Source of the DNA: an uncultured Oscillospiraceae bacterium
GTDB taxonomy: Bacteria > Bacillota > Clostridia > Oscillospirales > Oscillospiraceae
DNA: 64,000 nucleotides
Assembly: GCA_947626315.1 (NCBI GenBank)
Contig: CANQRQ010000002.1
Location: 82,538 to 146,537 of the forward strand
Direction of reading: 5' to 3'
The notes below the pieces were generated by a model. That model made no database searches and was not told the origin of the DNA. It was given only the letters and a program-made list of their open reading frames with translations. The position numbers and the translations under genes were made by a program. Shown piece by piece: positions 2,638 to 61,757 of the stretch (within the stretch, counting starts at the first letter, position 1; every line of letters begins with the position of its first letter).

Positions 2638-2638
2638 C

Positions 2639-4684: not shown

Positions 4685-4723
4685 TTTGAAAAGGTTTACG
4701 TTTTCAAATTTAGATGGTATAAT
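4685..4723 (+). promoter_or_regulatory. Inverted repeat and rightward promoter-like boxes ahead of the R-M genes
   Basis: TTTGAAAA and TTTTCAAA face each other 8 bp apart (4685-4708). Overlapping them, TTTACG and TATAAT with a 17-bp spacer read rightward, toward the recombinase and antisense to it. No comparable leftward promoter for the methylase is evident in 4568-4799. The repeat could be an operator controlling R-M expression; this is inference. Confidence 0.35.
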
Positions 4724-4799
4724 GTTGGCTATGTAGAACACGCAGGAAAGTTTGGTAAAGTACACCAATTCAGATTATAGGGTCCTTTATTTGCTCAAA

Positions 4800-5587
<788 letters not shown>

Positions 5588-5616
5588 GTCTGTATTCTCT
5601 TTTGTATACGGTCCAT

Positions 5617-46252: not shown

Positions 46253-46267
46253 CACAGCCTCCTTTCT

Positions 46268-46819
46268 TTATTCGTCCCCGTCCTCGTTTCCCTCTTTCAG
46301 CTTTCCGCCCAGGAGGTTCAGCATGGCGCCGCAGCCGGCCACCAGCAGCAGATAGATCTTGCCGATGCCGGTGGTGTACATCTCCATGAGGCTCCCCAGC
46401 ACCGGCGCGTGGAAGCTCACCTTGCCGATCAGATCGTCATAGTCCACCGTCCAGAGGTCCTCCGCCTCGTTGGCGTCCCCCTTGGTGACAAACTCCCCTT
46501 CTACCACCCGGTTCTGCTTCACCCGATGGGTCACTACAGAGCCTCTCTCGTTAAAGGCTATAATGTCATCCTCCCGGATTTCTGCCGGGTCCGCGGATTT
46601 CACATAGACTACGCTCCCCACGGGGATCTCCGGCTCCATGCTCCCGCTGAGCACGTTGTAAATCTCATAGCCCAAAAGGCGCGGCACCGTCACCGGCAGC
46701 ACGGTCAGAATGGCGGCCACCAGGATCAGCGTCCCCAGGATAGAGCAAAGGGCGGGGATCAGGCCCCCGCCCTTTTTTGGGGACCGCTGCCTTGCCTCAG
46801 GCCCGGTCTGTTCACTCAT
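46268..46819 (-). CDS. sipW: Signal peptidase I, ER/SipW type
   Basis: 183 residues from ATG at 46819, whose ATGA overlaps the stop of the upstream gene. N-terminal membrane helix (about 20-45), catalytic Ser in VLSGSMEPEIPVGSVVYV, and His instead of Lys in SVVTHRV, which marks the ER/archaeal (SipW) subgroup. C-terminal membrane helix. SipW in B. subtilis processes TasA and TapA; here two genes upstream have TasA/CalY-like signal sequences, so it is likely their dedicated peptidase. Confidence 0.93.
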   Translation of the reverse strand: MSEQTGPEARQRSPKKGGGLIPALCSILGTLILVAAILTVLPVTVPRLLGYEIYNVLSGSMEPEIPVGSVVYVKSADPAEIREDDIIAFNERGSVVTHRVKQNRVVEGEFVTKGDANEAEDLWTVDYDDLIGKVSFHAPVLGSLMEMYTTGIGKIYLLLVAGCGAMLNLLGGKLKEGNEDGDE

Positions 46820-47730
46820 GTGCTCTGTTCCTTCTTCTTGTTCTTTCTGCGGACGATAAACCATATGAGCAGTCCGATCAGGATCACATCGATCCCGATC
46901 AGGCCCATCCGCGCGCCGAAGGGCAGGGCCCCGAACAGCTCCGCCCCGTTCTCAAGGGCGTCTTTGCCCAGGTCCAGCAGGCCCAGAGGCGTATCCTCCT
47001 CGTCCAGGTCGATCAGATCCTGGGGTCCGTTGGCTCCGGGCACGCCATTGTCCGGAATGTTCTCATCGGTCTCGTCCGTCACGATGTTCCCTTCCTCGTC
47101 TACCGGCGGCTCCGTCACCTCCTGGATAGGCGTATACACAAAGGGGAAGACGTTCTCATTCTCGTTGACGCTCAGGGTCTTGCGCAGGTTGTAGGCCTGG
47201 GGCAGATAGCCGGGCACATCCCGGCAGCCTACGATCACCGCGTCCCCCGGCGTGCCGTAAAAGGTCTCTCTGGAGGGCAGGGGGCTGCCGTCCGCGTCCT
47301 CCGGGGTCACCGGGTTGCCGTTTATGTCGGAATAGGTGACGGTGTAGCTCACCACGCTGCCGGCAATGCCGTAGGCGATCACAAAATCCTTGTCCTCAGA
47401 CACATTGCTGTAGGTATAGTTCACGAAAATATCGCTGCTGTCCTTGCCGGCCTCTTTGACGCCCACGACCATAAACTTTTCGTTTACGCTGCTGCCCACA
47501 TTGGCGGCGCCGCTCACATTGACGGAAGCTCCGAAGGGGACCTCCTCCCAGGACCTCACCGGCTCAGAGGACTGAGGACCGTCATCGTAGTAGCCTGGGT
47601 AGAGCCGCACGGTATAACTGTAGGGTTTCCCGGTCTCGCCGCTGCCGGCCTCCGCGAAGGCGGTCAGGTTCAGCGAACCCAGCAGGCAGACGGCCAGGGC
47701 CAGGCACAAAAGGAGTTTCCAACGTCTCAT
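46816..47730 (-). CDS. Secreted, membrane-anchored MucBP-like protein
   Basis: 304 residues. Signal peptide (cleavage after TAFA), a MucBP-like module (about 125-205: VSYTVTYSDINGNPVTPEDADG, VPGYLPQAYNLRKTLSV), an acidic linker and a C-terminal membrane helix with a KNKKK tail but no LPXTG. It stays in the membrane facing outward. The MucBP-like unit suggests adhesion or a fibre anchor. The start overlaps the previous gene by 4 bp, and SipW overlaps its end. Confidence 0.72.
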   Translation of the reverse strand: MRRWKLLLCLALAVCLLGSLNLTAFAEAGSGETGKPYSYTVRLYPGYYDDGPQSSEPVRSWEEVPFGASVNVSGAANVGSSVNEKFMVVGVKEAGKDSSDIFVNYTYSNVSEDKDFVIAYGIAGSVVSYTVTYSDINGNPVTPEDADGSPLPSRETFYGTPGDAVIVGCRDVPGYLPQAYNLRKTLSVNENENVFPFVYTPIQEVTEPPVDEEGNIVTDETDENIPDNGVPGANGPQDLIDLDEEDTPLGLLDLGKDALENGAELFGALPFGARMGLIGIDVILIGLLIWFIVRRKNKKKEQST

Positions 47731-48491
47731 TTCTGGCCCTCCTCTTTCTTCGCTTTCCGGTTCTTTCGGTTCAGGCTCCAGCCGTACAGGGCCAGCAGCA
47801 GCACGAACAGTCCGCTGACCGCCGTCAGCCCCACGTAAAGGCTCACGTTGTTCTCGTCGCCGGTCTTAATGATCTTCTGCGGGTTTGGGGTCTCGCCCTC
47901 CGGCAGGTCCTCCCGCAGATCCACGGCGAAGCGCATATCGAACAGGCCTTCGGTAGACTGGTAGTCGTCGTGATGGGCAGCGCCGTCTATTTCCACATAC
48001 AGGGTGACTGAGCCGGTCTGCCCGTAGGCCAGGGTGTCCAGGTAGGAGTAGCCCTCCAGGGCTTTCGCCGCCTGGTGCAGGCCCACGCCGCCGCTGGTTT
48101 CCTGGCCGCCCAGATTCTCGCTGTTGAAGAGGGTATAGGTCCCTCCCGGCCCGCTGTAGGTCAGCCGGTAGGTATAGCCGCCGGCCTTGGCGCCCTCGTT
48201 TTCCGCTTCCGCTTTATCCTCCAGCGATTCAAAAACGTCGCTTTTGAAGTACCAGTCCGTGGTGACGCTGTTTTCGTTTTTGATCGTAACAGTGGCCGTG
48301 GCGGCGTCCCCCGGCAGCAAGTCCTCCAGGGCATTGTGGACCTCTTCATTTGCGTAGGTGTTGGTCAGGACTTTGGAACTGGTAAAGGTGACGGTGCCGC
48401 CGGGAATCGTGACCTTTTCGGCATAGGCCGCGGCGCTCAGGCTCAGCACCAGGGCCAGCATGAGCAGCAGGCTAAACAATTTCTTCTTCAT
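47727..48491 (-). CDS. Secreted surface protein with IIKTG-type sorting end
   Basis: 254 residues. Signal peptide (SAAAYA), a beta-rich middle (LLPGDAATATVTIKNENSVTTDWYF, LAYGQTGSVTLYVEID) and a C-terminal IIKTGD, hydrophobic helix and KNRKAKK tail. IIKTG is a divergent LPXTG-like motif, so it may be a sortase substrate or simply membrane-held. LLPGD..TVTIKN is reminiscent of TasA-like donor-strand folds. The precise family is not recognised. Ribosome site GGAGG. Confidence 0.72.
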   Translation of the reverse strand: MKKKLFSLLLMLALVLSLSAAAYAEKVTIPGGTVTFTSSKVLTNTYANEEVHNALEDLLPGDAATATVTIKNENSVTTDWYFKSDVFESLEDKAEAENEGAKAGGYTYRLTYSGPGGTYTLFNSENLGGQETSGGVGLHQAAKALEGYSYLDTLAYGQTGSVTLYVEIDGAAHHDDYQSTEGLFDMRFAVDLREDLPEGETPNPQKIIKTGDENNVSLYVGLTAVSGLFVLLLALYGWSLNRKNRKAKKEEGQK

Positions 48492-48506
48492 CGTTTACTC
48501 CTCCTC

Positions 48507-49283
48507 TCAGCCGGCGACGCCCCAGGAGTTGAACTTGGCGTCCGTGGCGTTGTGGTCCTGCACCGCGTCCACCACGGCCTTGATGCCAAAGCAGATCCCG
48601 TCATACTCGTATTCGGTCTTGATCACGTTCCCCTCCGTCACCTCATAGGACTTGATTTTCAGCTGCACATCGGGGCTGATGGTCAGGGTGTCCGTAAAGG
48701 GGGCGGAGGTGCCGCCGTTGGCGGCCAGCAGCGGATCATAGTACAGCACGGTCCGCTCAGCGGTGTTGTCCCCGGGGATGGTGGAGATGCGCCAGCCGTT
48801 CCCCGTCACGAAGTTCAGCTTGATCAGATCCGGGTCCAGGTTGGTCAGCTTGACCTTTTGATCGCCTTCCATTTTGTACCAGTATTTGTACACGCTGACC
48901 CGGACGTATTCATTGATGTCGCCGCTGTTGACCACCCGCAGGCCCTCGGTATAGGTCTGGCCCAGCTTCACCGGCTCTTTCTCCGTGATGCCGTTGAGCT
49001 TCTGCCATTCCTCGCCCAGCAGGGGTGCATTCTCGGTGGTCCAATCGTCCTTGCTGTTTGCCACATAGTCCCGCCGGCCCACCGTGGTCCAGTTGGTCCC
49101 GTCGCCGCTCTCCTGGAGGCTCACGCCGATCTGGTGCATCTCGATCCGGGCCCGGTAGGTGTCCGACTCGTCGATCATCGCCGCGCGGGTGCCGCCGATG
49201 GCGCTGGTGCCCAGCAGCAGCGCCGCCAGCACGAACAGCATCGTAGTGACCCGAGGGGTCAGGATTTTCTGCAGCTTCTTCAC
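48507..49283 (-). CDS. TasA/CalY (camelysin)-like secreted protein
   Basis: 258 residues. The signal region (VTTMLFVLAALLLGTSAIGGTRAA) is followed by a beta-rich domain: LGQTYTEGLRVVNSGDINEYVRVSVYKYW is the camelysin/TasA-type strand pattern. No anchor or LPXTG. Probably a SipW-processed fibre subunit. It lies 3 bp from the neighbouring TasA-like gene and five genes from the sortase in one operon. Confidence 0.75.
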   Translation of the reverse strand: MKKLQKILTPRVTTMLFVLAALLLGTSAIGGTRAAMIDESDTYRARIEMHQIGVSLQESGDGTNWTTVGRRDYVANSKDDWTTENAPLLGEEWQKLNGITEKEPVKLGQTYTEGLRVVNSGDINEYVRVSVYKYWYKMEGDQKVKLTNLDPDLIKLNFVTGNGWRISTIPGDNTAERTVLYYDPLLAANGGTSAPFTDTLTISPDVQLKIKSYEVTEGNVIKTEYEYDGICFGIKAVVDAVQDHNATDAKFNSWGVAG

Positions 49284-49286
49284 GGC

Positions 49287-49859
49287 TCAAAGACCCCCTT
49301 CCGTGCTGCCCTGGACCAGCTCTCTGGTCCAGTCCGCCTCTGTGGGCGCCACAGGCGTCCCGTCCGCGTTGTACACCACCGGGATGCTCTCATACACCAC
49401 GATCACGTTGAACGCGTCGCCCTCCTGCAGCTTCTTGAAATCTTCGCTGCCGTCCTTCGGCAGGCCGTCGATCTGCACGGTCAGTTTCGTGGTGCTCTCG
49501 CCGGGCTTCACGGAGGCCGTGTAGTAGTAATAACTGTCTATCGGGCCGCTCCAGCCGTCGCCGGTGGGCGTGCACTTCAGCTCGATCGGCGTCCGCTCCG
49601 GCCCCAGGTACAGCTTCTCCGGCCAAAACACCCGGGCCCGCACATAGATATCGTCCACGCTGTCCGTCTTGTTGCTGACGACCAGGGTCTTGGTCCAGTT
49701 GGAAAAGTCCTCCGTAAACTCCCGCTGATTCCCCAGGGCGATGGGCAGGCCGCCCTCCGCCTGGGCATAGGTGGTGAAGTAGGCATACGCACCGCCGATC
49801 CCGGCGCTGAGCACCAGCACCAGGGCCAGCGCTGTCAGAAAAAGTCTTTTCTTCTTCAA
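49287..49859 (-). CDS. TasA/CalY-like small secreted protein with SipW-type signal
   Basis: 190 residues. The signal AGIGGAYAYFTTYAQA is the SipW-type cleavage region (the G-x-AYFT pattern of TasA and CalY). NWTKTLVVSNKTDSVDDIYVRARVFW is the family's strand pair. No anchor. Paired with the larger TasA/CalY-like protein next to it. Probable fibre or matrix component. Confidence 0.78.
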   Translation of the reverse strand: MKKKRLFLTALALVLVLSAGIGGAYAYFTTYAQAEGGLPIALGNQREFTEDFSNWTKTLVVSNKTDSVDDIYVRARVFWPEKLYLGPERTPIELKCTPTGDGWSGPIDSYYYYTASVKPGESTTKLTVQIDGLPKDGSEDFKKLQEGDAFNVIVVYESIPVVYNADGTPVAPTEADWTRELVQGSTEGGL

Positions 49860-49872
49860 GTCTCAGCCCTCC

Positions 49873-51039
49873 TTACGCCTCCGGCGCCGGCGCCGGCTCT
49901 GCCGCGTTGGGGTCTACCTTGTTCAGATCCCAGCTCTCCCCGTTAAAGCTAAACTGGTTGACGATCCCGTGGCCCCGCTTCTGATCCGGGCCGTGCCGGT
50001 TTTCAAACGACAGATTCAGGCCATCCACCAGGTCTACCGTCAGATCCCCGCTCTGCTCCGTCACCTCGGCGGTGTAGAACGCGCCGGAGTAGATCTCCCG
50101 GACGGTGACATGAGAGCCCACGGGCACCTGGTCCAGCGTCACCGGCTTAGGCGTGACGCCTTTGCTGAAGGTCAGGGCCACGGTGTTCCGGTAGACCTCC
50201 TTGGGCGTCCCGTCCTCGTTGGTGCCCTTGGTGGCCGTCACCTCAAACACAAAGGTGGCGGGTTCGTCCTCCTCATAGTAGTCGATCCCCTTGGTGATGG
50301 TCACCTTGCCGAAGCGGGTCTGCTGCTCCGGCTTCAGGGTGACGGTGACCTCGTTCTCCCAGCTGCCGTTGAAGACGCCGGGGACCGTCTCCCCGTCCTC
50401 ACCCACGCTGTCCTCACCCAGGCCCTGGGCGGGCAGGGAGACCAGCTGGGGCCGGAAGGTGTAGGTATAGTTCGCGGAGTTGGCCAGGGTGGCCGGATGC
50501 TCCGTGCCGTCCACGTCCAGGCTGGTGATGTACTGCTCCGGCGTCATGTCCTTCCCGTGGGGGATCAGCAGATACAGGCCCGGCTTCAGGTCCTCCGCTG
50601 TATCCAGCTCCGCGCCGGGCACGGTGGGATCAATGGCCGTCCCGTCCTTGATCGCCTGGAGCACCAGGTCGGAGGCCTCCCAGGCCAGCTTATCCCAGTC
50701 CGCCACGGTGACGGTGTTCATGTCCGGCATCGTCAGGCTCTCAAATCCCTCCGCCAGCTCCTCATAGGTATAGGCGTCATAGCCGGCCCAGGGCTTCGCC
50801 GCGGCCACCAGGTACAGGTCCACCACCACGCCCACCGGGTCCGCCGGTTCCGCCGGCTCAGCGCCGGGGTCCTTCCCGGTCTCCGGGGCGGGGGACAGAT
50901 CCTCCTGATAGTCTTTGGGCAGCTCCATGGTCAGCGTATTGCCGGTCTCCCAGGTGGCGGCACTGGCGGACGGCGCGGCTGCCGCGAAACCCAGCGCCAG
51001 GGCCAGGCTCAGCGCCAGGGCCAGCGATCTCTTTTTCAT
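49873..51039 (-). CDS. Pilin-like subunit without sorting motif
   Basis: 388 residues from ATG at 51039 (AAGGAGGAG upstream). Signal peptide (to about 27), a first pilin domain (about 60-210, VDLYLVAAAKPWAGYDAYTYEELA, DLKPGLYLLIPHGKDM), then a Spy0128/T-antigen-like CNA domain (FGKVTITKG, ATFVFEVTATKG, TVREIYSGAFYTAEVTEQSG, LSFENRH). It lacks LPXTG, membrane helix and positive tail, ending instead in a Pro/Ala tail. It might be a tip or secreted subunit, or have lost its anchor. It follows the sortase by 18 bp. Confidence 0.75.
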   Translation of the reverse strand: MKKRSLALALSLALALGFAAAAPSASAATWETGNTLTMELPKDYQEDLSPAPETGKDPGAEPAEPADPVGVVVDLYLVAAAKPWAGYDAYTYEELAEGFESLTMPDMNTVTVADWDKLAWEASDLVLQAIKDGTAIDPTVPGAELDTAEDLKPGLYLLIPHGKDMTPEQYITSLDVDGTEHPATLANSANYTYTFRPQLVSLPAQGLGEDSVGEDGETVPGVFNGSWENEVTVTLKPEQQTRFGKVTITKGIDYYEEDEPATFVFEVTATKGTNEDGTPKEVYRNTVALTFSKGVTPKPVTLDQVPVGSHVTVREIYSGAFYTAEVTEQSGDLTVDLVDGLNLSFENRHGPDQKRGHGIVNQFSFNGESWDLNKVDPNAAEPAPAPEA

Positions 51040-51056
51040 AGGCGATCTCCTCCTTT

Positions 51057-51962
51057 TCACTCTTGCTTTTTGTCACCCTTATTCCTGAATTCCTCTAAAA
51101 GCTGCTTGCTGTTCTTTTTCGGTTTGCGGAAGCTGTAATAGAACAGCATGCCCGTCAGCAGCAGGAACAGCAGCGGCACGCCCACCGCCGGGATCACCAC
51201 ATAGGTGGAGATCCGGCTGGCGTCCGGCATGACGATCACCGAGTCCGGCAGGTTTTCGATCCGGGTCCCCCGCACAAGCATCCGGTGGCTGTTTACCCCG
51301 TAGGGCGTGCAGGTGACCAGGGTACAGTAGTCCTCCCCCGGGGTGATCTCCAGGTCCTCTACCTCCTCCGGCAGCACGATCCGGATCTGATCCACCACAT
51401 AGGTGATCTTCCGGGTCAGCACCGTGACGGTGAAGACGTCCCCCTCCTTCAGCTGGTCCAGGTCGGTGAACAGCCGGGCGGAGGGCAGGCCCCGGTGGCC
51501 GGAGATGGCGCAGTGGGTGTTCTCACCGCCCACGGGGAGAGAGGTCCCTTCCAGGTGCCCCGTGGCCACCTGCAGAATGGCGTCCCCGGTGCCGTGGTAG
51601 ATGGGCAGATAGACCTTGATGGACGGGATCTCCACATAGCCCATGATCCCGTCGCCGTTTACGTCCAGCAGCGCCTCATACTCGGCGGCCATATCCTCGG
51701 ACATAGGGAAGTGGACCCCGGTCTGGGCCAGGCGCTCATTGAAGGCGTCCGCTGCCGCCAGCATGGCCTCCGCCTCGCCGCTGTCGATGTTCTCCACCGC
51801 CTCGATGTAGGAGGCCACGGCCCTGGTCTGGTGGTAGCTGTTCCACCAGTCGGCCACCGTGGGGTACAGCAGCAGCCCCAGCCCGGCCAGAAGGATCAGC
51901 AGGAGGATGAAGGTGGAAACCTTGCCGCTCCCCCGTTTTTTTGCTTTTTGTGTCTGTGACAT
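51057..51962 (-). CDS. Class C (pilin-polymerising) sortase
   Basis: 301 residues. N-terminal and C-terminal membrane helices (about 17-36 and 245-272), as in class C. The catalytic His is in CAISGHRGLPSARLF, Cys in TLVTCTPYGVNSHRMLVRG, with the Arg following. A lid region precedes the core. It should link the LPETG major pilin and the LPESG adhesin into pili through isopeptide bonds. It is the only sortase in the window. Confidence 0.95.
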   Translation of the reverse strand: MSQTQKAKKRGSGKVSTFILLLILLAGLGLLLYPTVADWWNSYHQTRAVASYIEAVENIDSGEAEAMLAAADAFNERLAQTGVHFPMSEDMAAEYEALLDVNGDGIMGYVEIPSIKVYLPIYHGTGDAILQVATGHLEGTSLPVGGENTHCAISGHRGLPSARLFTDLDQLKEGDVFTVTVLTRKITYVVDQIRIVLPEEVEDLEITPGEDYCTLVTCTPYGVNSHRMLVRGTRIENLPDSVIVMPDASRISTYVVIPAVGVPLLFLLLTGMLFYYSFRKPKKNSKQLLEEFRNKGDKKQE

Positions 51963-51978
51963 AGAAGGTCCCTCGGAC

Positions 51979-52061
51979 TAATTAGGAATTAGGAATGAGG
52001 AATGAAGGAATAATAGATTTAAAACCATTAATTCCTAATTCTTAATTCCTAATTCTTAATT
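51979..52061. repeat. AT-rich TTAGGAA/TTCCTAA repeat palindrome
   Basis: About five TTAGGAA-like units on the left face TTCCTAA-like units on the right across ATTTAAAACC. The arms form an imperfect long hairpin between the pilin and sortase genes. Base composition contrasts sharply with the flanks. Confidence 0.65.
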
Positions 52062-52073
52062 GGAAAGCTTTTT

Positions 52074-52113
52074 CCTTCTCTCTTCTCGCCCTTGCGGGCG
52101 AGAAGAGAGGGAA
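52074..52113 (-). terminator. Hairpin after the major pilin gene
   Basis: TCTCTTCTCGCCC pairs with GGGCGAGAAGAGA. It lies 10 bp after the pilin stop and precedes AT-rich DNA. Partial termination would give much more major pilin than sortase, as in other pilus operons. Confidence 0.7.
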
Positions 52114-52123
52114 TTAAGAGAAC

Positions 52124-53686
52124 TCAGCTTTCTTTGCTCATGCGCTTCTTGGTCACCAGCAGCACCAGGGCCGCGACAACCAGCACGCCGCCCACGGCGT
52201 AGAAAATGGTGGTGCCGATGCCGCCGGTCTCCGGCAGCTCTAGGCCGGACTGGTTGACAATGTCGGTGGAAGCGACGCCGGTGGCCGGGGTAACGGTGAA
52301 GGTAATTTTGCTCTCACCGGTAACATCCGTGATCTCATCGCCGTCCTTATCGACCTGAGTGACCTTGAGATCGGTAAGTCCAGCGGCGGTTCCGTCAGTA
52401 TGGACAGCTTCAACAGTGAAGTAAATAGGATCGATGGTGTTGAAGCCCGGAGGCGTGGTGGTCTCCTCGATCATGTAACGACCATCGTCCAGGCCCTTGA
52501 AATCGAAGACGGTCACGTCTGTAACCTCGTCTCCGACCTTCACGTACTCAGAGCCGTTCCACTTGTACAGGGTAAAGCCGGCGCCCTTCAGGGGGACGAA
52601 ACCATCACCATCCGCATCGTCGTCGCCTTCAGCAGCCTTGCGGACCTTGTTGATCTCGAGCTGGAAGGTGAAAACAGTGACCGTATCCTCGGGGGTGTGG
52701 CCGGTGCCCTCATGGTTGGGATTGTTGGAGTACTCCAGCTTCACGGTGTTCGGGTTGCCGTCAGGTCCGATCACAGCGCTTTCGTTCAGAGTGGAGTTGA
52801 AGGAAACAACAACCTTGCTGTCTTTGGTCGCGGAGGGAGCAACACTCTTAAGATTTGCGATAGCGACCTCAAAGGTGCAGCCATCTTCCAGGCCCTCCGT
52901 CGTCAGAGTATACTGACCGTCAGTGAGCGCAGCGCCGTTAACCGTGACAGAAACGATGCCGGAGAAGGTAAGGCCAGCGCTCTGGGTATCGTGGAACACC
53001 AGCTTGTAGCTGTCATAATCGGCATAGTTGCTGGGCAGGGAGGCAGTCAGCTGGAAGGGAACGGTGTCGTTGATATCCCAGTCAGCGGTGTCGCGCCAGG
53101 TTTCATCGTCGTTGTCCTGAACCTTCTTTTCAACAGAAGGAACATCGGCCTTGGGCTTCATATCGGTGTCGCCAAGGACCTGAACGATGTAGTCGGAAAT
53201 TGCGAAATCCTCAGCACCGGGGTCATCCTGGGTATCGAGGACGAAGTAATAACCGGCAGCGACAGGGGCAGTTGCATATTTACCGTCACCATTATCGTCC
53301 ATAGCAACAGGATTTTGGACCTTGCCGACGATAGCGGCGGCGATCGCATGAGCCTCGAGGGACGAGATCCCCTCCGCGACCTTGGCGGCGTCCTCCACAT
53401 CCGTAACATCGGCAAGATCTGCCAGAGCCGCCTTGCCAGCATCGGTCAGGCCATTGCCCCACTTGACGTTGGACAGGACATCTTTACCGTCTTTCGTTGC
53501 CAGGTCGCCAGTAAAGATCTGGTAAGCCTGATAGACGTGCGTGCCAGTGGTCTTTTCGATGGTGAGCACAAAGCCTCCATCTTCGCCCGGATCGGCGGGG
53601 GTAACCGCCGCGAACGCCGTGACCGAGACGCTCATGAGGAGCAGGACGGCCAGGAGCAGGCAGCTCAGTTTTTTCAGTGCTTTCAT
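52124..53686 (-). CDS. Major pilin, SpaA/FimA type (LPETG)
   Basis: 520 residues. Signal peptide (to VTAFA), an N-terminal pilin domain (FVLTIEKTTGTHVYQAYQIFTG), a middle domain, and a Cna-B domain with the E-box YMIEETTTPPGF that forms an isopeptide bond. LELPETGG, a membrane helix and the tail KKRMSK complete the sorting signal. Family pilins use a lysine in a pilin motif; the candidate region is near VPSVEKKVQDND. It is polymerised by the sortase downstream and has the likely highest expression of the set (own ribosome site AAAAGGAG, hairpins on both sides). Confidence 0.93.
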   Translation of the reverse strand: MKALKKLSCLLLAVLLLMSVSVTAFAAVTPADPGEDGGFVLTIEKTTGTHVYQAYQIFTGDLATKDGKDVLSNVKWGNGLTDAGKAALADLADVTDVEDAAKVAEGISSLEAHAIAAAIVGKVQNPVAMDDNGDGKYATAPVAAGYYFVLDTQDDPGAEDFAISDYIVQVLGDTDMKPKADVPSVEKKVQDNDDETWRDTADWDINDTVPFQLTASLPSNYADYDSYKLVFHDTQSAGLTFSGIVSVTVNGAALTDGQYTLTTEGLEDGCTFEVAIANLKSVAPSATKDSKVVVSFNSTLNESAVIGPDGNPNTVKLEYSNNPNHEGTGHTPEDTVTVFTFQLEINKVRKAAEGDDDADGDGFVPLKGAGFTLYKWNGSEYVKVGDEVTDVTVFDFKGLDDGRYMIEETTTPPGFNTIDPIYFTVEAVHTDGTAAGLTDLKVTQVDKDGDEITDVTGESKITFTVTPATGVASTDIVNQSGLELPETGGIGTTIFYAVGGVLVVAALVLLVTKKRMSKES

Positions 53687-53787
53687 TTTGTTCTTTTCTC
53701 CTTTTAAAAAGATTTTTTAAAAGCGGGATACGCGAAATGGGAACTTGCTGTTAGGAGTTACGATCGCTGGGGTGTATGTGCTCGGGG

Positions 53788-53813
53788 CTTCCCGGTCCCG
53801 GGGGGACCGGGAG
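53788..53813. other. GC-rich hairpin between adhesin and pilin genes
   Basis: CCCGGTCCC and GGGACCGGG pair in the 154-bp gap. Without a U-tract it is more likely an RNA stability or processing element than a terminator. Confidence 0.5.
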
Positions 53814-53840
53814 ACCCACGGGAAAACTGAGAGCTACGGA

Positions 53841-56800
53841 TCAGGCTTCTCCCCCTTTCCGCTTGCGCTGGGAGGTCTCCAGGAGCAGAATCGCCGACAG
53901 GGCCATCATGCCCAGTCCTACTGCGTACAGGGGTCCAAGGCCCTCGCCGCCAGATTCGGGCAGGGAGTAGGCAACAGGGGGATCGCCGACCGTCAGCATT
54001 CCATCCGGCGGAGCAATGTCCACCGTAGGATCGATGTCGTCATTCTTGAGTCCAAAGTAGAACAGGACAGGCTCTTCTAACAGCTCATACCCTGCCGGGG
54101 CTGTGATTTCCTTAAGAATGTAGTAACGTCCGGGTTCAAGATTCTTGCTCTCCACAGGAACGCTCCCGTCTGCGTCAGTCGTTAGTTCCTGCGCCAAACG
54201 GCATTGATAGGTTGTTTCTCCTATGGTTATTTCTTCCTTGTATTCCTTGTACTGTCCCGCGCTCTGCGTACCGCTCTCCGGTTTAACAGCGTACAACTCA
54301 AATTTCGCGTTGGGCAGTTTTTTGCTGTTATTCTCACTGTCGACCTTCACGATCGTCAGATGATACTCTTTGCCGCCGCCGCCGGCATTAATATCGTCGA
54401 CCTTCAGCGCTCCTTCATAGCTGCTGTCCGAGCGGGCCACGCCATCGATGCTGGCTTTGTTTGTCACTTCCACGCCATCACCCACTTCGATGATCAGCGC
54501 ATCGTAGGTGATCTGCAGGGCCACGCTGTCGGGAATTTTCAGCTTGAACTGATGCTCATCCTCGGTCGGCAGGAAGCCCCACTGGCCGGATCCCAGGGTC
54601 GCGTCAACGGTGGTATTCCCAATGCCAGTCAGCAGCGTTCCGCCCTTGTCAGTCACTTTGATGTTGTCCGGATTGATCTGGATGCCGGTGCTGTCATCCG
54701 TTACGATCAGGTAATCCTTATCCTTATCCAGATCGGCGCCGGCCGGATTGATGTCCAGCGTAAAGGTGATCAGATTGCTGGTTCCGTCCTGCTCGGCGGT
54801 CTTGGTCAGCCGGTTGGGCAGATAGGGAACTGTCTCGTCGGTGCCCCAATGGGTCATATTTTTGTCCTTGATCTCGGCGTGGTTATCAATATCAACCGCG
54901 CTCTCGTCATCGGCGTGCTTCATCAGCCAGTCACGGGTGGCCTTGAGCTTGTAGTGAAATGAGATCTCCGTCAAATCGTCATTACTCCACGCATCGTGCG
55001 CCCCGTAGTTCCCCGCAAAGAAGTTAATCAGCGGTGCGGAGATCGATCTCCCGTCCTCGCTCAATTCAGACCCCCTGCTGGTCAGATACGCGAAGGTTTG
55101 GGTGTTTCCGTACCGATCCGTTGTCACCGCGTACAGGCTGCCCGGCACATACTCCCAGCCCTCGGGCAGCACGTCGTAAAACTCAGCCTGCATCGTGTAC
55201 TGGTAATCCCAGCTATTGTATTCATCGAAGCTGTCGTAAACGTCCTGCCCGACCTTCTTGAAGTAGTCCCGGACGGTGTCGTCCGACAAGCCCACCGTGA
55301 CGGTGTAGTCGATGGTGTTGGTGTTCTTGTCCGGAACGCCGGTCTTGTTGATTTTCTCGATGTTGTTGAAGAACACCGAGTAGCCAGGGTTGTACTTGCT
55401 GAAGCGGAGGTTGACGTTGTTCGTGACGCCGGCGTGCAGTATCTGCTCCGGGGTCAGGGTCCTTTCGGTTTTGGTATCAAGACTCTTGACGGTCAGCTCT
55501 GCCTCGCCGGACAGATCCAGGTCGTACTCCGTGATGACCAGCCGGTCTTTATCATGATTCCAGCTGCCCCAATTCCCCCAGTATTCGTTATAGTCCCGCA
55601 TGTGGTCGAAGCCGAAGATGATGTACAGCGTCCTGTCACCGAAGTAGTGGACATACTGGTCCACGTTCGTGGCTTCATAGCCCTCCGGCTTGCTGTTGAC
55701 GTCGAAGGTATAGAAGTCGAAGCCAGTCAGCGGCTGGGCCTGATTCACCCAAGTCTGAAGGTTCTCCTGGAGTTTGTCGGGGTCCTCGTTGTCCTTCCAG
55801 CCGAACTGGCCGTCGGGCAAGTCCACGGCCCTGACCGTCAGGCTGTTGAGGGCGACCCGGCCGCCGTCCTTTTTGAACTCTTCGATGTACCAGCGCTCGC
55901 CGCCGTAATTGACGTACATATCGTCCTGGATAAAGAGGGGCTCCCACGTCCCCTTCGGGATCACCGTGTAGAGGGTGTAGTGCAGCTTGTGCGTGGCTTC
56001 GTCATAGTGCTGGTCCTTGAAGATCAAGCCGTCGCCGGTGGTCGTCACGTTAATCCACACGTTGCTGTTCTGCTTTTCCTCCACTTCGACGGGCGGCTTT
56101 CCTTCTGGGTCGTCGGGGTCCTCCAGCGGCATGGAGCCGTGGACCGTGACCTCGTTGAGCGCGCTGCCGCTGAGCAGGCCGACGCCTTTCATATTGTAGT
56201 CCACATCGTACTCATAGGAGACGTTCAGCACGTCGCCCTCGTACAGCGTCGCGTAGGGGTCCTTGAGCTTGACGATGAACGTCTGCTTCTCCGGGTTCTC
56301 CGGGTCGGTCTCGCCGGGGATCAGCTCATATTGATCGGACGTGAGCTCGATGGGCTCGCTGTTTGGGTCAGCCGTCGCCCGCTTGAGGGTGACCTTTATA
56401 TTCTGATAGGCTCCCACCTTAATCGCGTCAGTCTGGGGCGGGGTGAGCACGTCGGTAACCTGCACGTTCTCCACCGTGCCGTGCTCTACCGTGGTCGTCA
56501 CGGTGTAGGACAGCGTCCCGCCTTTTCCGTCCGCGTCCTCCTGGAGCCCGCCGCTTTTCTGCACGTCCAGCCGGGGCTGATCCGTGACCACAAATTTAAA
56601 GTCCTCGCCGGTGTCCCCGAAGTGAACGTCCGCGTCGCTTCCGCCCTCCGTTTTCTGTGCGGTGGCATCCATGTCGAAGAACAGCGTGTAGCCGGTTGAA
56701 CCCTCCAGTTTCTGCTTTCCTTCCTCGGTAAGCTCAATCGTCAACCGGCCATCCGCGTCGACCGAGTATTTTCCGATCAAAACGCCGTCGATCTCCAAGC

Positions 56801-58823
56801 TCACATCGCTGCGCGGTGTAACCTGAAAGTTGCTTGGAATTTGATAGGTCATTTGCCCGTTTTTGTCCCACTTAAACTGGTTTCCATCCATTCCGCCCTC
56901 TTGGAATTCCATGTGGATCGAGTACGACTCGCCCACATACAGCTTGCCGTCCGTGACCTCCTCGCCCTTGTTGTCCTTGATTGTCACACCGTCAAGCAGA
57001 CCGGTCATATCGCCTGTCTGGGGGATAGGAGCGCTCTCCGTGCCATCACCGAAGATAATGGCAAGATCCGGTATGCCGTCCAGGAAATTCACCAGGAAGC
57101 TGAAGGGGGAGAAACTGCCGGTCTTAAAGCTGACGCCGTTTTCATCGGACACAGATTCCAGGATCTCCGGGCCGCCGCCGGCAAAGTGGACCACGGTGAC
57201 AGGAACCCCGGTGGGGATGCCGTTTTCATCCAGGAACTGGACCGTGACAGTGACCGGCGCGGCGGGCTCCACCTTGGTCTCGTCGGGCAGGTAGAAGCCG
57301 ATGTCATACAGCAGCACCTTGCTCACTTCCATCTGCCCCTCCACGGCGGCGATGGCTTCCTCCATGTTCCGCTCATAGGCGGCGATATCGCCGGAGGCCG
57401 TGATCTGCGCGGCCCGCAGCTCCGCCTCCTCGGGGATCTGGGCCTCGGCGGTGTAGGTCACGTTGATGAGGACGCCGCTGTCCTGGCAGGTCTTGGTCAG
57501 AGCCTCCTCTGTCTCAGCAGGAGTAAGGCAGGTCTCAGTGTGAATGTGCTCCTCCAAGCCGCACACGATCTCGCCGCTCTCGTCCCGGCAGGACTCGTCA
57601 TGAGTGTGTTCGGTCAGGCCGCAGATGTACTCCGGGGCCGCGCTCTCCTCGGGAGCGGCCAGGCAGCTCTCATCGTGAGTGTGCTCCTCCAGGCCGCACA
57701 TGATCTCGCCGTTCTCGTCCCGGCACTCGTCAGAGTGGGTGTGTTCAATCTTGCCGCAGATATACTCAGGCGCGGGGACCTCCGGGTCGTCCCCGGTGGT
57801 CTCAAAGAAGAACAGGCCGTCACCGTCGTTCTCTACCTGGCGCTCCTCCATGGTGAAGCAGCCTTCCCCGTGGACGTGCTCCAGCAGTTCGATTTTTCCG
57901 CAGATCGGGTTGCCGGTCCGGTTGCCGGCGCCGTCCAGCACAAAGCAAGCGTCCGTATGCTCATGATTTTCCAGTTTGCCGCAGATCAGCTCCCGCCTTG
58001 TCTCAAAGCACTCGTCTGTATGGACATGGCCGCCCTCGGGGATCTCTCCTTCGGGGATCTGGCAGGTCAGGGTCTCTGTCCAGGCGTAGCAGTCGTCGGT
58101 GTGGGTGTGCTCAGGGATCTCACAGATCAGGGCCTCGTTGACTGTGTAGCACTCGGGGCCGTGGTTGTGGAGCTCCGTAGTCTTGTCGCAGATCAGGGTC
58201 CTGACCTCGGTGTAGCAGGCGCCCGAATGGGTATGGGTCTCGCTTTCTTCTTCGCCGCAGCTGAGTTCCCGGTTCACGGTGTAGCAGGAATCATTGTGGG
58301 TGTGAGCCTGTTCTGTCTTGTCGCAGGTCAGCACTTCTTCCCGGTTAAAGCAAGCGTCCCCGTGGGTGTGTTCCTCCTGGGTGCAGGTCAACTCACCGCG
58401 CTGCCGGTCAAAGCATTCCTCCGTATGCTCGTGGCCCTTGGCCTCCTCCTGGCCGCATATGGGGGTCTTGACATCTTCGTAGCAGCTGTCCTCATGGACG
58501 TGGGGCCAGATCTCCGGCAGAGGGCATACCAGGGTGCCGTTCTCGTCGCGGCAATCGTCATTATGGACGTGCACTACGTAGTCAGCATAGCCGCATACGA
58601 GTTCTCCTTCCGCATTTTTGCAAGACGGCGTATGCTCATGCACCACCAGTGGGCAGGTCAGCACCTTGACCTGCTGCGTCATGGCATGGCCCGTAAAGGT
58701 GAGAATCCCCACCGTGGCCGCCGTGACCACCAGTGCCAGGCAGAGAAAGACCGCCATTGCCCGCGCTGCCGTCTTATGCTCCCGCACAAGCTCAGCCACT
58801 TGTCTGAAAATAGAAGATTCCAT
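53841..58823 (-). CDS. Giant LPESG-anchored adhesin with HxHxxxC repeats (pilus tip candidate)
   Basis: 1,660 residues. A long signal anchor (about 22-45) leads into a stretch (about 60-435) with 16 HxHxxxC units, each paired with one further Cys (e.g. EHTHTDDC, GHVHTDEC, EHTHDESC). Next come a helical piece and several beta domains (about 440-1500), a SpaA/Cna-B domain with E-box YYILKEITAPAGY, and LPESGG, membrane helix, KRKGG tail. Presumably covalently anchored and first in the pilus operon, where tip adhesins often sit. AAGGAGGG ribosome site. It reads directly from the invertible promoter segment. Confidence 0.85.
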   Translation of the reverse strand: MESSIFRQVAELVREHKTAARAMAVFLCLALVVTAATVGILTFTGHAMTQQVKVLTCPLVVHEHTPSCKNAEGELVCGYADYVVHVHNDDCRDENGTLVCPLPEIWPHVHEDSCYEDVKTPICGQEEAKGHEHTEECFDRQRGELTCTQEEHTHGDACFNREEVLTCDKTEQAHTHNDSCYTVNRELSCGEEESETHTHSGACYTEVRTLICDKTTELHNHGPECYTVNEALICEIPEHTHTDDCYAWTETLTCQIPEGEIPEGGHVHTDECFETRRELICGKLENHEHTDACFVLDGAGNRTGNPICGKIELLEHVHGEGCFTMEERQVENDGDGLFFFETTGDDPEVPAPEYICGKIEHTHSDECRDENGEIMCGLEEHTHDESCLAAPEESAAPEYICGLTEHTHDESCRDESGEIVCGLEEHIHTETCLTPAETEEALTKTCQDSGVLINVTYTAEAQIPEEAELRAAQITASGDIAAYERNMEEAIAAVEGQMEVSKVLLYDIGFYLPDETKVEPAAPVTVTVQFLDENGIPTGVPVTVVHFAGGGPEILESVSDENGVSFKTGSFSPFSFLVNFLDGIPDLAIIFGDGTESAPIPQTGDMTGLLDGVTIKDNKGEEVTDGKLYVGESYSIHMEFQEGGMDGNQFKWDKNGQMTYQIPSNFQVTPRSDVSLEIDGVLIGKYSVDADGRLTIELTEEGKQKLEGSTGYTLFFDMDATAQKTEGGSDADVHFGDTGEDFKFVVTDQPRLDVQKSGGLQEDADGKGGTLSYTVTTTVEHGTVENVQVTDVLTPPQTDAIKVGAYQNIKVTLKRATADPNSEPIELTSDQYELIPGETDPENPEKQTFIVKLKDPYATLYEGDVLNVSYEYDVDYNMKGVGLLSGSALNEVTVHGSMPLEDPDDPEGKPPVEVEEKQNSNVWINVTTTGDGLIFKDQHYDEATHKLHYTLYTVIPKGTWEPLFIQDDMYVNYGGERWYIEEFKKDGGRVALNSLTVRAVDLPDGQFGWKDNEDPDKLQENLQTWVNQAQPLTGFDFYTFDVNSKPEGYEATNVDQYVHYFGDRTLYIIFGFDHMRDYNEYWGNWGSWNHDKDRLVITEYDLDLSGEAELTVKSLDTKTERTLTPEQILHAGVTNNVNLRFSKYNPGYSVFFNNIEKINKTGVPDKNTNTIDYTVTVGLSDDTVRDYFKKVGQDVYDSFDEYNSWDYQYTMQAEFYDVLPEGWEYVPGSLYAVTTDRYGNTQTFAYLTSRGSELSEDGRSISAPLINFFAGNYGAHDAWSNDDLTEISFHYKLKATRDWLMKHADDESAVDIDNHAEIKDKNMTHWGTDETVPYLPNRLTKTAEQDGTSNLITFTLDINPAGADLDKDKDYLIVTDDSTGIQINPDNIKVTDKGGTLLTGIGNTTVDATLGSGQWGFLPTEDEHQFKLKIPDSVALQITYDALIIEVGDGVEVTNKASIDGVARSDSSYEGALKVDDINAGGGGKEYHLTIVKVDSENNSKKLPNAKFELYAVKPESGTQSAGQYKEYKEEITIGETTYQCRLAQELTTDADGSVPVESKNLEPGRYYILKEITAPAGYELLEEPVLFYFGLKNDDIDPTVDIAPPDGMLTVGDPPVAYSLPESGGEGLGPLYAVGLGMMALSAILLLETSQRKRKGGEA

Positions 58824-58849
58824 AGTGCCCTCCTTCTACAACTCTCTCA

Positions 58850-58875
58850 ACCGCATAATGGGTGTTATGCGGTAA
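58850..58875. repeat. Left inverted repeat (recombination site) of the invertible segment
   Basis: 26 bp, an exact reverse complement of 59144-59169. Internally it has arms CCGCATAA and TTATGCGG around the asymmetric 6-bp spacer TGGGTG, the layout of tyrosine-recombinase core sites; the arms resemble dif half-sites. It lies 27 bp before the adhesin ATG, within its leader. Confidence 0.9.
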
Positions 58876-58909
58876 ATAGCGGCATTATTTCTCAAAATAC
58901 GTTTAGAGT

Positions 58910-58938
58910 ATTATACTACATACCCTGTTGAACTTCAA
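58910..58938 (-). promoter_or_regulatory. Promoter P1 inside the invertible segment
   Basis: TTGAAG (58933-58938) and TATAAT (58910-58915) with a 17-bp spacer, reading leftward. Transcription should begin near 58903, so the left recombination site lies in the 5' leader. Confidence 0.82.
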
Positions 58939-59041
58939 TAGCCTTTGCAAATTTAACGGTTGTTTCACAGGCTTGCATCCCTGGCAGGACCTGCCGGGGG
59001 TGGGAGTCTTTTGCTGCTGCTCCTGCTATTGAACCAATTAC

Positions 59042-59077
59042 AGTATAGCAAAGCTACAGTCTAAAAAACAGTCTAAA
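59042..59077 (-). promoter_or_regulatory. Promoter P2 with direct repeats, SARP-type layout
   Basis: Leftward: TTTAGACTGT occurs twice, 12 bp start to start (59068-59077 and 59056-59065). Exactly 8 bp (AGCTTTGC) separate the second from TATACT (59042-59047). There is no proper -35 box. SARP activators typically bind direct repeats of 11-bp period with the last repeat 8 bp before the -10. The operon encodes a SARP-like BTAD protein at 44196. Confidence 0.6.
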
Positions 59078-59143
59078 CTCAAAAGAAAAAAAGGTAATTT
59101 TCAATTTTTTTGCTCCCCTGGCCATGATGCCAGGGGATTTTGC

Positions 59144-59169
59144 TTACCGCATAACACCCATTATGCGGT
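59144..59169. repeat. Right inverted repeat (recombination site) of the invertible segment
   Basis: Perfect reverse complement of 58850-58875, 1 bp after the recombinase stop codon (59171-59173). The spacer reads CACCCA on this strand, so the two sites face opposite ways and recombination between them would invert, not delete. Confidence 0.9.
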
Positions 59170-59170
59170 A

Positions 59171-60019
59171 TTATTTTATGCCTAATAGCCCCAGGTGTTC
59201 AATACTGTGCCGCTGCTCGGCCAGGCTGACGCTGGTGTAGATCCGGGTGGTGTTGATGTTGGCGTGGCCCAACAGATCTGCCAGGTGGCAGATGTTCCGC
59301 TCCGCCTTGTAGAAGGTCACGGCAAAGAGATGCCGCAGGTTGTGGGGGAAGACCTTGCCGGCCGCCACCTTCGCCAGGCGGCACAGAGCTTTCATGGCGT
59401 GGAGGATGTTGGTCCGGTCCATGGGCCGCCCGCTACGGGTGACAAACACGCTGCCGCTTCGGATGCCCCGGTCCCGGACGTATTGCAGCAGTTCCTTACA
59501 GAGCGGCCCCGGCAAAATAACAGTCCTGGTCTTGCCCTTCATGGTGACAGAAGCCTGGCGGCAGCGGAGGGCCTGCACGGTGATAAACCGCAGCTCACTG
59601 ACCCGGATGCCCGTGGCGCAGATGGTCTCCATCAGCAGGTACAGCCGCCGGTCCCCCTTTTGCTTGGCCGCCTCCAGCAGGCGGAAGTATTCCTCCTTCG
59701 TCAGCTCCCGCTCCTCCCTTCGGAACGCCTCCCGCTGGAGCTTAAAGGCTTTCACCGCGCAGTCCGCCCGTCCGCTGATCCGCAGATAATAATTCACCGC
59801 CGCCAGCATGGAGTTGGCGCTGGCGACGGCATAGCTTTCTGCCAGGCGCTGCTTATAGGCCATCACCAGCTCCTTGGTGATCTCCGGCCGGTCCTCCGCG
59901 AATCGGAGAAAGGCCAGCACATCCCGCCGGTACTTCTCCAGAGTGGCCTCGCTCTTTTCATCCTCCCGCAGCGCTGTTTCCAGAAGCTCCAGCTGCTTAC
60001 TCACGCTTGTGCTTTCCAT
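59171..60019 (-). CDS. Tyrosine recombinase (probable invertase of the pilus promoter)
   Basis: 282 residues. N-terminal SAM-like core-binding domain (about 1-100), catalytic domain after. All catalytic residues are present: Arg139 in ATGIRVSEL, Lys in MKGKTRTV (161-163), His226 and Arg229 in HNLRHLF, His252 in LLGHANI, and nucleophile Tyr261 in TRIYTSV. The size is that of small XerC/D- or FimB/Mpi-like enzymes. AGGAGGAG ribosome site. Its 3' end abuts one recombination site, and the other lies 268 bp further on, so it most likely flips that segment. A housekeeping Xer role is less likely given this context. Confidence 0.93.
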   Translation of the reverse strand: MESTSVSKQLELLETALREDEKSEATLEKYRRDVLAFLRFAEDRPEITKELVMAYKQRLAESYAVASANSMLAAVNYYLRISGRADCAVKAFKLQREAFRREERELTKEEYFRLLEAAKQKGDRRLYLLMETICATGIRVSELRFITVQALRCRQASVTMKGKTRTVILPGPLCKELLQYVRDRGIRSGSVFVTRSGRPMDRTNILHAMKALCRLAKVAAGKVFPHNLRHLFAVTFYKAERNICHLADLLGHANINTTRIYTSVSLAEQRHSIEHLGLLGIK

Positions 60020-60092
60020 GGATCTCTCCTCCTGCTTTCTATGAATATTTTCATATTAGCAGTTTTCCTCTTTGCCGGGAGGATATACCCAT

Positions 60093-60216
60093 CAAGTTGA
60101 AGACAAAGTGTCTTCAACTTGAAAGCTTGATTGAACGCTGAAAGGGGGCTCCCGCCCCCTCTCTGCGCTCTCCCCCTGCATGTTTATACAGGGTTCTTCT
60201 GTTTGTCTACAGTCTG
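60093..60216 (+). repeat. 124-bp modular hairpin element, copy B
   Basis: Inverted partner of 25514-25674, lacking that copy's extra hairpin. It starts with a palindrome (AAGTTGAAGACA and complement), has GGGGGCTCCCGCCCCC-type pairing, and ends TTTGTCTACAGTCTG. It lies upstream of the recombinase gene on one side and of the Fic gene on the other. The rest of 60020-60331 holds only the Fic gene's TATAAT (60304) and leader. Confidence 0.8.
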
Positions 60217-60331
60217 CCATCTATAAGGCTGCTCTGCCGGGCGAAATTTTCGTGGATTCAGCCGGCGCGGGGCATTTTCTTTTCCGCAGGCGTGAAAACT
60301 GTGTTATAATTCTTATATAGGAGGTGCGCCT

Positions 60332-61093
60332 ATGACCGATTATGAGAAGGCCGTCGCGTTGTGGCAGAAACGGCACATAAGCACGGACGCGGAGCTTGCC
60401 GAGGCGCTGAACGGACACAGCATTGCCTTTGCCTACCACTCCGGCAAGCTTGAGAATGAAAACGTGACCTACCATGACACCCGTGAGATTTTCGAGCACG
60501 ACGGCGTGACCGGCTACACCGGGGACCTGCGGACGCTTTTCGAGATCCGCAATTCCCGGGAGGCAAACGAGCTGCTTCTGACGGCCTTTGCCGAAAAGCG
60601 GCCTGTGGACGAAGCGCTGGTCCAGGAGTTCCAGCGCGTGCTCACCCAGAACACCTACGACGCCCGCCGCTGGCAGCTGGGCGAGCGGCCCGGCGCGTAT
60701 AAGCGCCATGACTATGTGACCGGCAAAAACGAGATTGGAGCAGCGCCGGAGGATGTGCCGGAGGAGATGGCGGAGCTTTTGGCCGAGCTTGCGGGCATCC
60801 CCGACGAGAAGGCCCTGACAGCCGCCGCATACTTTCACGCCAAGTTTGAGAACATTCACCCCTTTGCCGACGGCAACGGACGCGCCGGGCGGCTGCTGAT
60901 GAATTACCTTCTGCTCAGCCACAACCACCCGCCCGTCATCATCCACGAGGAGGACCGCAAGGGCTACTACGCCGCGCTGGAGGCCTGGGACGAGCGGCAG
61001 GAGCTTGATCCGCTGCTCCTGTTTCTCCGGGAGCAGACGGTCAAGACCTGGCGAAGACAGCTGGAGCGCGAGGGCAGGAGAAAGAACCGCTGA
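60332..61093 (+). CDS. Fic domain protein (AMP transferase-like), class II inhibitory motif
   Basis: 253 residues. The Fic core motif is HPFADGNGRAGR with the catalytic His. The flap lies near YKRHDYVTGKNEIG. An inhibitory (S/T)xxxE(G/N) motif appears at the N-terminus as SGKLEN (about 35-40), placing it in class II (intramolecular N-terminal inhibition). Such enzymes transfer AMP or another nucleotide-derived group to hydroxyls of target proteins. No antitoxin partner is adjacent, in keeping with self-inhibition. Ribosome site TAGGAGGT 7 bp upstream, TATAAT at 60304. Confidence 0.92.
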   Translation: MTDYEKAVALWQKRHISTDAELAEALNGHSIAFAYHSGKLENENVTYHDTREIFEHDGVTGYTGDLRTLFEIRNSREANELLLTAFAEKRPVDEALVQEFQRVLTQNTYDARRWQLGERPGAYKRHDYVTGKNEIGAAPEDVPEEMAELLAELAGIPDEKALTAAAYFHAKFENIHPFADGNGRAGRLLMNYLLLSHNHPPVIIHEEDRKGYYAALEAWDERQELDPLLLFLREQTVKTWRRQLEREGRRKNR

Positions 61094-61256: not shown

Positions 61257-61757
61257 TTGAGCGACCGGGAAATAGAAGAGGTCTACTGCCGGAACATCGA
61301 CTCCGTATACCGGCTATGCTTCTCCTTCATGAAGAACCGGGCCGACGCGGAGGACATGAGCCAGGAGGCCTTTTTGAAGCTGATCAGCCGCCGGCTGCGC
61401 TTTGCCGCTCCGGAGCAGGAGCGGGCCTGGCTCCTGGTCACCGCCTCCAACCTGTGCAAGAACGCCCTGCGGCACTGGTGGCGGCGGCATGAGGACATAG
61501 ACAGCCTGCAAAACGTGGCCCAGAGCTATGACCTTGACACCGGCGAGACCCTGCGGGCCGTGCTGGACCTGCCGAAGGACTATAAAACCGTCGTCTATCT
61601 GTACTACTATGAGGGCTACAGCACGGCTGAGATCGCCGCCTGTACCGGTTCGCCCCAGGCCACGGTGCGCAGCAGGCTGCACCGGGCCCGGAAGCTGCTG
61701 AAATCTGTGTTGGGGGAGGATGAAAATGAGCCGCTTGAAGCTTCAAAAGGCCTATGA
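61257..61757 (+). CDS. ECF-family RNA polymerase sigma factor
   Basis: 166 residues from TTG at 61257, the only in-frame start after the stop at 61221; no strong ribosome site is seen. Region 2: YCRNIDSVYRLCFSFMKNRADAEDMSQEAFLKLI. Region 4: LPKDYKTVVYLYYYEGYSTAEIAACTGSPQATVRSRLHRARKLL. It directs RNA polymerase to envelope- or stress-type promoters. It overlaps the next gene, a membrane protein with the size and place of an anti-sigma factor, by 32 bp. Confidence 0.9.
   Translation: MSDREIEEVYCRNIDSVYRLCFSFMKNRADAEDMSQEAFLKLISRRLRFAAPEQERAWLLVTASNLCKNALRHWWRRHEDIDSLQNVAQSYDLDTGETLRAVLDLPKDYKTVVYLYYYEGYSTAEIAACTGSPQATVRSRLHRARKLLKSVLGEDENEPLEASKGL

Follow-up and report, generated by a model that had tools for sequence, protein, structure and literature searches.

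Gene content of the locus

On the minus strand of the window, the whole 64,000-nucleotide stretch of DNA that was analysed, a recombinase gene is followed by a recombination site (the near site), a 268-bp segment, a second (far) site and then genes for an adhesin, a pilin, a class C sortase and six more proteins. The recombinase gene (59171–60019, −) is a complete open reading frame that ends 1 bp from the right repeat, as the original prediction had stated. The encoded protein of 282 amino acids matches Pfam Phage_integrase, is XerA/XerD-like (below the cut-offs of those models) and has the catalytic domain of a tyrosine recombinase with its R-K-H-R-H-Y residues (R139, K163, H226, R229, H252 and Y261). 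In a family of 75 loci (see below), R139 and K163 were kept throughout, H226 and R229 in 74 and H252 and Y261 in 71, the remainder being gaps. The enzyme had been compared with FimB/FimE; the likeness holds for its presumed way of working and fails for its family, with 28.3 bits for PRK09870 (cut-off 221) and 21.8 bits for PRK09871 (cut-off 222).

The genome has seven matches to the recombinase; for two of the six others the identity is listed, as 32% and 30%. In a large protein search all 7,999 scored candidates, those sharing most words, matched the recombinase, giving at least 7,999 matches. Close DNA matches were not found in plasmids, and viral contigs contained no confirmed relative of the recombinase and no exact site. 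An Rfam search of 58600–60400 at E up to 1 gave three matches, all far below their gathering scores. Divergent from the recombinase gene lies a gene with weak Fic-type matches (60332–61093), and then one for an ECF-type sigma factor (61257–61757).

The first gene of the operon (53841–58823, −) encodes a 1660-aa surface adhesin with a SpaA domain and is preceded by the ribosome-binding site AAGGAGG at 58829–58835. It is followed by the genes for an LPXTG pilin (52124–53686, −; GramPos_pilinBB and an isopeptide domain, with the SpaH/EbpB model below its cut-off) and a class C (pilus) sortase (51057–51962, −). The combination of an LPXTG isopeptide pilin and a class C sortase marks a Gram-positive sortase pilus operon. 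Next comes a 395-aa protein (49873–51060, −) with a weak DUF5979 match below the cut-off, a homologue of which also follows the sortase in a related locus, L036. The remainder (46268–49859, −) encodes proteins of 190, 258, 254 and 304 aa and a signal peptidase I (46268–46864, −). The 258-aa protein has a weak match to a SipW-dependent matrix protein, the 254-aa protein a weak match to a sortase-dependent surface protein, and the signal peptidase matches the SipW model below its cut-off. The N-terminal part of the adhesin is a long run of C...H.H...C repeats, perhaps metal-binding; zinc-finger-like DUF4379 proteins are likewise found among the targets of the recombinase family (6/42).

The left, pilus-side site (58850–58875, +) reads ACCGCATAA-TGGGTG-TTATGCGGT(AA), and the right, recombinase-side site (59144–59169, −) is its perfect inverted copy. 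The proposed pair of 26-bp inverted repeats 268 bp apart was thereby recovered, with 26 of 26 positions complementary. Each site is a palindrome, ACCGCATAA-TGGGTG-TTATGCGGT, around an asymmetric 6-bp spacer; the TGGGTG spacer had been recognized correctly, but the half-sites measure 9–10 bp and not the 8 bp given for the arms. When up to 3 mismatches were allowed, the site pattern occurred at 2 places in the window and at none in 100 shuffles. In the whole assembly (2.68 Mb, 68 contigs) it occurred at 4 places (2 exact, one with 1 mismatch and one with 3); a backwards-read control pattern, searched in the same way, was also found at 4 places, so that only the exact pair stands out there. The two sites of the window are the sole exact copies in the assembly. 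A lone palindrome elsewhere in this genome (G000:C2:8367-8390, locus L003) is 1 mismatch away from the site and has another spacer, GGTCCT; no partner site was detected in its vicinity by the scan.

Predicted promoters and terminators of the segment

The segment between the repeats (58876–59143) is considered invertible on the strength of the repeats and of inverted homologues in relatives, and would be assembled here in the ON orientation. It holds a predicted promoter, TTGAAG-17-TATAAT (58938–58910, −), that matches the consensus at 10/12 positions and is aimed at the adhesin gene, which starts at 58823; this element had been proposed earlier and was confirmed as a consensus match. The locus thus consists of inverted repeats round a short segment with an outward promoter, the latter recognized by consensus only. 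The scan of 58780–60340 yielded three further matches of 9/12, with 0.8 expected in shuffles. A weaker promoter-like match (9/12) lies inside the segment on the opposite strand (58889–58917, +); an overlapping pair outside it (59202–59173, −; 9/12, spacer of 18, a match by consensus alone) aims through the segment at the operon.

Five terminator-like sites were found in 58780–60340, all on the plus strand (2.0 expected), and none faces the operon as assembled. Two are hairpins inside the segment, at 58976–59002 (−31.6 kcal/mol in a 48-nt stretch) and 59114–59137 (−19.1 kcal/mol in a 38-nt stretch), which would face the pilus operon after inversion. A third (59145–59180, +; −13 kcal/mol) is formed by the right site, read as RNA, together with the T-rich end of the recombinase gene, and faces the recombinase. 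The others are a smaller one overlapping 58976–59002 and one upstream of the recombinase gene. The two hairpins of the segment, that of the right site and the weaker promoter-like matches (the one at 58889–58917 and the overlapping pair) had been overlooked in the original prediction. Between the two terminators of the segment lies a block of about 60 bp (59046–59104) that contains a GTAGC-TTT-GCTA dyad; of the segment, it is this block that can be aligned with L036 (83% over 59 bp), and the block is kept in L035 too.

No promoter-like site was detected on either strand of 46200–58850 (12.6 kb, 2.9 expected), nor any terminator-like site on the operon's strand of the same region. Transcription of the operon would thus seem to need a start within the segment or passage through it. 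It is reasonable to suppose from these sequence features that the segment controls the whole pilus operon and that the window represents the ON form, as had been claimed.

Equivalent loci in the recombinase family

The family set comprised 75 loci: the window, 58 from the listed recombinase matches, 12 of the 14 of a second set and 4 plasmid loci. L089 and L090, which judged by length are on the same contigs as L035 and L036, and shorter fragments among the listed recombinase matches were left out. A repeat pair was scored when at least 16 positions were identical, the copies were 150–340 bp apart and they lay −20 to +95 bp from the recombinase stop codon. Pairs were sought in the 61 family loci with at least 480 bp downstream; of the 14 with less, which were left out, L082 does have a pair.

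An inverted pair was present at the 3' end of the recombinase gene in 46 of the 61 family loci, whereas 20 other Xer-type recombinases had none. Dinucleotide shuffles gave no pair in 1,220 and 400 sequences (0/1,620 together), and the repeat layout is therefore not due to chance. The frequency of pairs by identity to the query was 6/6 at 55% or more, 19/21 at 50–55%, 13/22 at 45–50%, 8/10 at 38–45% and 0/22 below 38%, where 20 of the 22 were controls. Fifteen of the 61 family loci had no pair by the rule; one of them, L052, has a pair further downstream. Equivalent repeat pairs thus track the recombinase clade of the window and are absent at the 20 other Xer-like recombinases tested. Two loci, L042 and L046, have three sites each, giving two alternative repeat pairs, and in L024 two sites point the same way; such arrangements could allow deletion or nested inversions.

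The first downstream open reading frames of the family are varied: the 42 scanned included VWA_2 (7), DUF4379 (6), Cna_B (4) and SpaA (3) proteins and single polysaccharide-synthesis genes. A plasmid of Pusillibacter faecalis is among the carriers, and there an S-layer homology protein comes next. Among 46 segments, 34 had an edge promoter matching at 9/12 or better and 21 one matching at 10/12 or better; the corresponding numbers for 920 mononucleotide shuffles were 273 and 49.

The original prediction had suggested searching related genomes for both orientations. A genome of the same genus (G071) has two such loci, L035 and L036, with recombinases 83% and 82% identical to that of the window and, in both, a homologous adhesin and a homologous sortase. 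In both loci the homologue of the segment is inverted with respect to the window (alignment scores inverted versus same of 261.5 versus 53.0, and 138.0 versus 52.5), so that homologous segments do occur in both orientations among relatives, the comparison being with other species and with paralogues. In L036 (about 2637–7374), the adhesin homologue matches in two overlapping N-terminal pieces, residues 1–206 and 171 onward, and looks frame-broken or variable. Over the family, 16 pairs of segments could be aligned at E 1e-4, 8 inverted and 8 in the same orientation, not all of them independent. One genome (G136) holds four of these loci, and the segments of L062 and L067 are 85% identical over 216 bp in opposite orientations. 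The relative orientation agreed with the promoter calls in all 8 pairs with both members called.

These observations bear on the idea that there is no switch at all and that the palindromes are terminators or protein operators round an ordinary promoter. It is true that the right palindrome and the T-rich tail after it resemble a terminator, but ordinary terminators need not share a perfect 26 bp with an identical asymmetric spacer, and the occurrence of homologous segments in both orientations, in a layout that follows one recombinase clade, makes this explanation very improbable. A former switch that is now locked, with a dead enzyme or dead sites and the pilus always on, is also decidedly unlikely. 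One orientation was assembled here, and the recombinase of three relatives has an internal stop (two of these, L051 and L063, are beside a switch, among 46 switches); against this, the 26-bp repeats are perfect and the reading frame is intact with its catalytic residues, while the segment has drifted to 78% identity between species.

Calls by promoter position classified 5 of the 46 segments as ON (window included) and 28 as OFF, with 13 uncalled. The two-sided binomial p for 5 versus 28 is near 7e-5, for loci that are not fully independent. A weaker promoter match points the opposite way in 4 of the 33 called segments, and the terminators are opposed to the promoter in 11, agree with it in 4 and are absent or tied in 18. 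These numbers help to judge an alternative in which the segment does flip but works mainly by its terminators, as in cwpV, with the segment promoter secondary: transcription from 59202–59173 or from the recombinase's own promoter would pass in ON and be stopped in OFF. The outside match aims at the operon, the two terminators would face the operon only after inversion, and cwpV works in this way (PMC2784873). The promoter of the segment is the better match, however (10 versus 9 of 12; spacer of 17 versus 18), and an edge promoter is found again in 34 of the 46 segments, whereas promoter-opposed terminators are seen in just 11 of 33. We consider control mainly by terminators unlikely.

Three of 14 short contigs (L024, L092 and L094, from other species) break off precisely at the final base of a site. 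An assembler halts at a site when two sequences follow it, as with mixed orientations, and these contigs give a hint, and only a hint, of mixed orientations within samples of other species. Two of the three genomes were searched for a second contig carrying the site, and none was detected. Contigs of another genome (G096) that end soon after the recombinase gene were considered as evidence for inversion and rejected, as they look like repeat breaks between near-identical copies. This genome has at least 7 copies of the recombinase family (L072–L074, L077, L080, L085 and L086), mostly at contig ends, and the copies that extend past the recombinase gene have near-identical sequence downstream.

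The sites were aligned for 43 pairs, three odd-centred sites being left out. In the four central spacer columns, 0 of 172 cells differ within a pair, yet these columns vary freely from locus to locus; in the four outermost columns, the members of a pair differ in 17–28 of 43 cases on the left and 7–13 of 43 on the right. Part of this contrast between centre and edge arises from the repeat finding, as identity at the site centre is partly selected by the search itself. In Mantel tests against recombinase distance, with kinship ignored, the arms gave r 0.44 (0/5,000 permutations) and the spacer r 0.10 (108/5,000); for the 844 pairs with a recombinase distance above 0.4 the values were 0.41 and −0.01. 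An enzyme that recognizes the arms, with a strand exchange whose sole requirement is that the two spacers match, would be expected to leave such a pattern.

The covariation also bears on which enzyme acts. The segment might be flipped mainly by another recombinase, as with RecV of C. difficile, the adjacent gene being a passenger or partner. RecV acts at a distance (PMC2784873), and the genome here does contain seven recombinase matches. That the arms co-vary with the adjacent enzyme argues against this view, as do the sites at −20 to +95 bp from the stop codon of this clade in 46 of 61 loci and at 0 of 20 other recombinases, and we regard it as improbable.

In 19 of 43 loci, at least 5 of the 9 bases that follow the near site in the direction of the recombinase are T; the three remaining hairpin edges reach this in 2, 4 and 4 of 43 loci. 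The T content outside the near site differs from that outside the far site (Wilcoxon p 8e-5), and its mean is 4.19, against 2.67 in nearby antisense background; the stop codon contributes part of it. From its sequence, the near site is predicted to be a one-way valve that would stop an OFF-phase transcript before the recombinase gene. A role of the OFF-phase promoter in making antisense RNA against the recombinase was also considered; it is less likely, as the near site and the T-rich stretch after it resemble a terminator directed at the recombinase.

Proposed switch and relation to known systems

Overall, the locus is very probably a fim-like phase switch in which the recombinase (59171–60019) flips the 268-bp segment and the promoter of the segment drives the pilus operon (46268–58823). 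Our confidence was slightly higher before the promoter-like match at 59202–59173 (−) was taken into account, which aims at the operon in both phases. The recombinase, its catalytic activity deduced from the conserved residues, would act on the two palindromic sites. In the ON form, as assembled, the predicted promoter aims at the adhesin gene; after inversion (OFF) it would aim away from the operon, and the two terminators of the segment, now oriented toward the operon, would stop transcripts arriving from the direction of the recombinase. The pilus would then be made by part of the population only. Nothing terminator-like lies between the recombinase and adhesin genes in the ON form, and the OFF form would have two terminators there. 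By analogy with fimE, the recombinase transcript may run on in ON, so that more enzyme is made and cells are pushed back to OFF. Such feedback, which we infer from the analogy, would fit the family-wide excess of OFF assemblies, but across the called loci the terminators are opposed to the promoter in only 11, against 4 in agreement and 18 with none or a tie.

In a wider reading, the window would belong to a large clade of Clostridia switches in which each surface operon has its own recombinase and the recognition of the arms evolves with the enzyme. The freely drifting 6-bp spacer would serve as an address that prevents cross-recombination between switches within one genome, and the near site would have a second role, terminating transcription in one direction only where the recombinase gene ends. 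The promoter and the insulating terminators would be inverted as one unit; in ON, transcription would no longer be terminated behind the recombinase, and this would act as feedback that restores OFF. This combination of own enzyme and arms, spacer address, near-site terminator and feedback to OFF is put forward tentatively; as a whole we give it somewhat less than an even chance.

The fim pilus is of the chaperone-usher type, unlike the covalent Gram-positive sortase pilus encoded in the window. As in E. coli fim, a pilus operon is preceded by a short promoter segment, predicted to be invertible here, with a tyrosine recombinase gene next to it, but fim has FimB and FimE genes, whereas the window has one adjacent recombinase only, which fails the FimB/FimE-type models. 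The invertible promoter fimS is 314 bp long (PMC9993118) and lies beside tyrosine recombinase genes. In fim, transcription behind fimE is terminated in a phase-dependent way, in OFF; the ON transcript is longer, which increases FimE and shifts cells toward OFF (PMC2784873). The predicted terminators of the window are of the intrinsic type, in contrast to the Rho-dependent one of fimE. In cwpV of C. difficile, a 195-bp inversion by RecV occurs upstream of a surface protein gene, and an intrinsic terminator has been proposed in the OFF transcript (PMC2784873). There the promoter is outside the segment and the recombinase gene is elsewhere, whereas in the window promoter and terminators would flip together beside the recombinase gene.

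Alike in anatomy and host class are the invertons of group 139 with invertase group 35, which are of Clostridia (32/33) and nearly all have a tyrosine-type recombinase nearby (PMC11892184). For two examples of group 139, with about 206 and 228 bp between the repeats by coordinates, orientation shifts were seen in reads, and one example showed more of the reverse orientation on mucin carriers (PMC11892184). These groups are possibly the same clade as the switch of the window. The main text of PMC11892184 contains none of the terms sortase, pilus, pilin, isopeptide, LPXTG and SpaA. Sortase-dependent pili of the gut commensal Bifidobacterium breve are also turned ON and OFF, by replication slippage (PMC9187656) and not by the DNA inversion proposed here. 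In a literature search of limited depth, no published example of a sortase pilus controlled by an invertible promoter came to light.

The kind of switch is already known from fim and from Clostridia invertons shown with reads (PMC11892184); possibly newer are the sortase pilus as target, the predominance of OFF among the called segments (28 of 33) and the predicted second role of a site as a terminator. If the proposal is correct, a complete Gram-positive sortase pilus operon is under a reversible DNA switch in a relative of the Oscillospiraceae. The family offers many natural replicates of a matched enzyme and site, which opens recombinase specificity, spacer addressing and phase bias to direct tests, and metagenomes that already exist can be used to score orientation. 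A protein search returned an identical recombinase (P0001) whose longest contig has 2,750 bases, much shorter than the contig of the window; the orientation of its switch would be informative if P0001 is another assembly.
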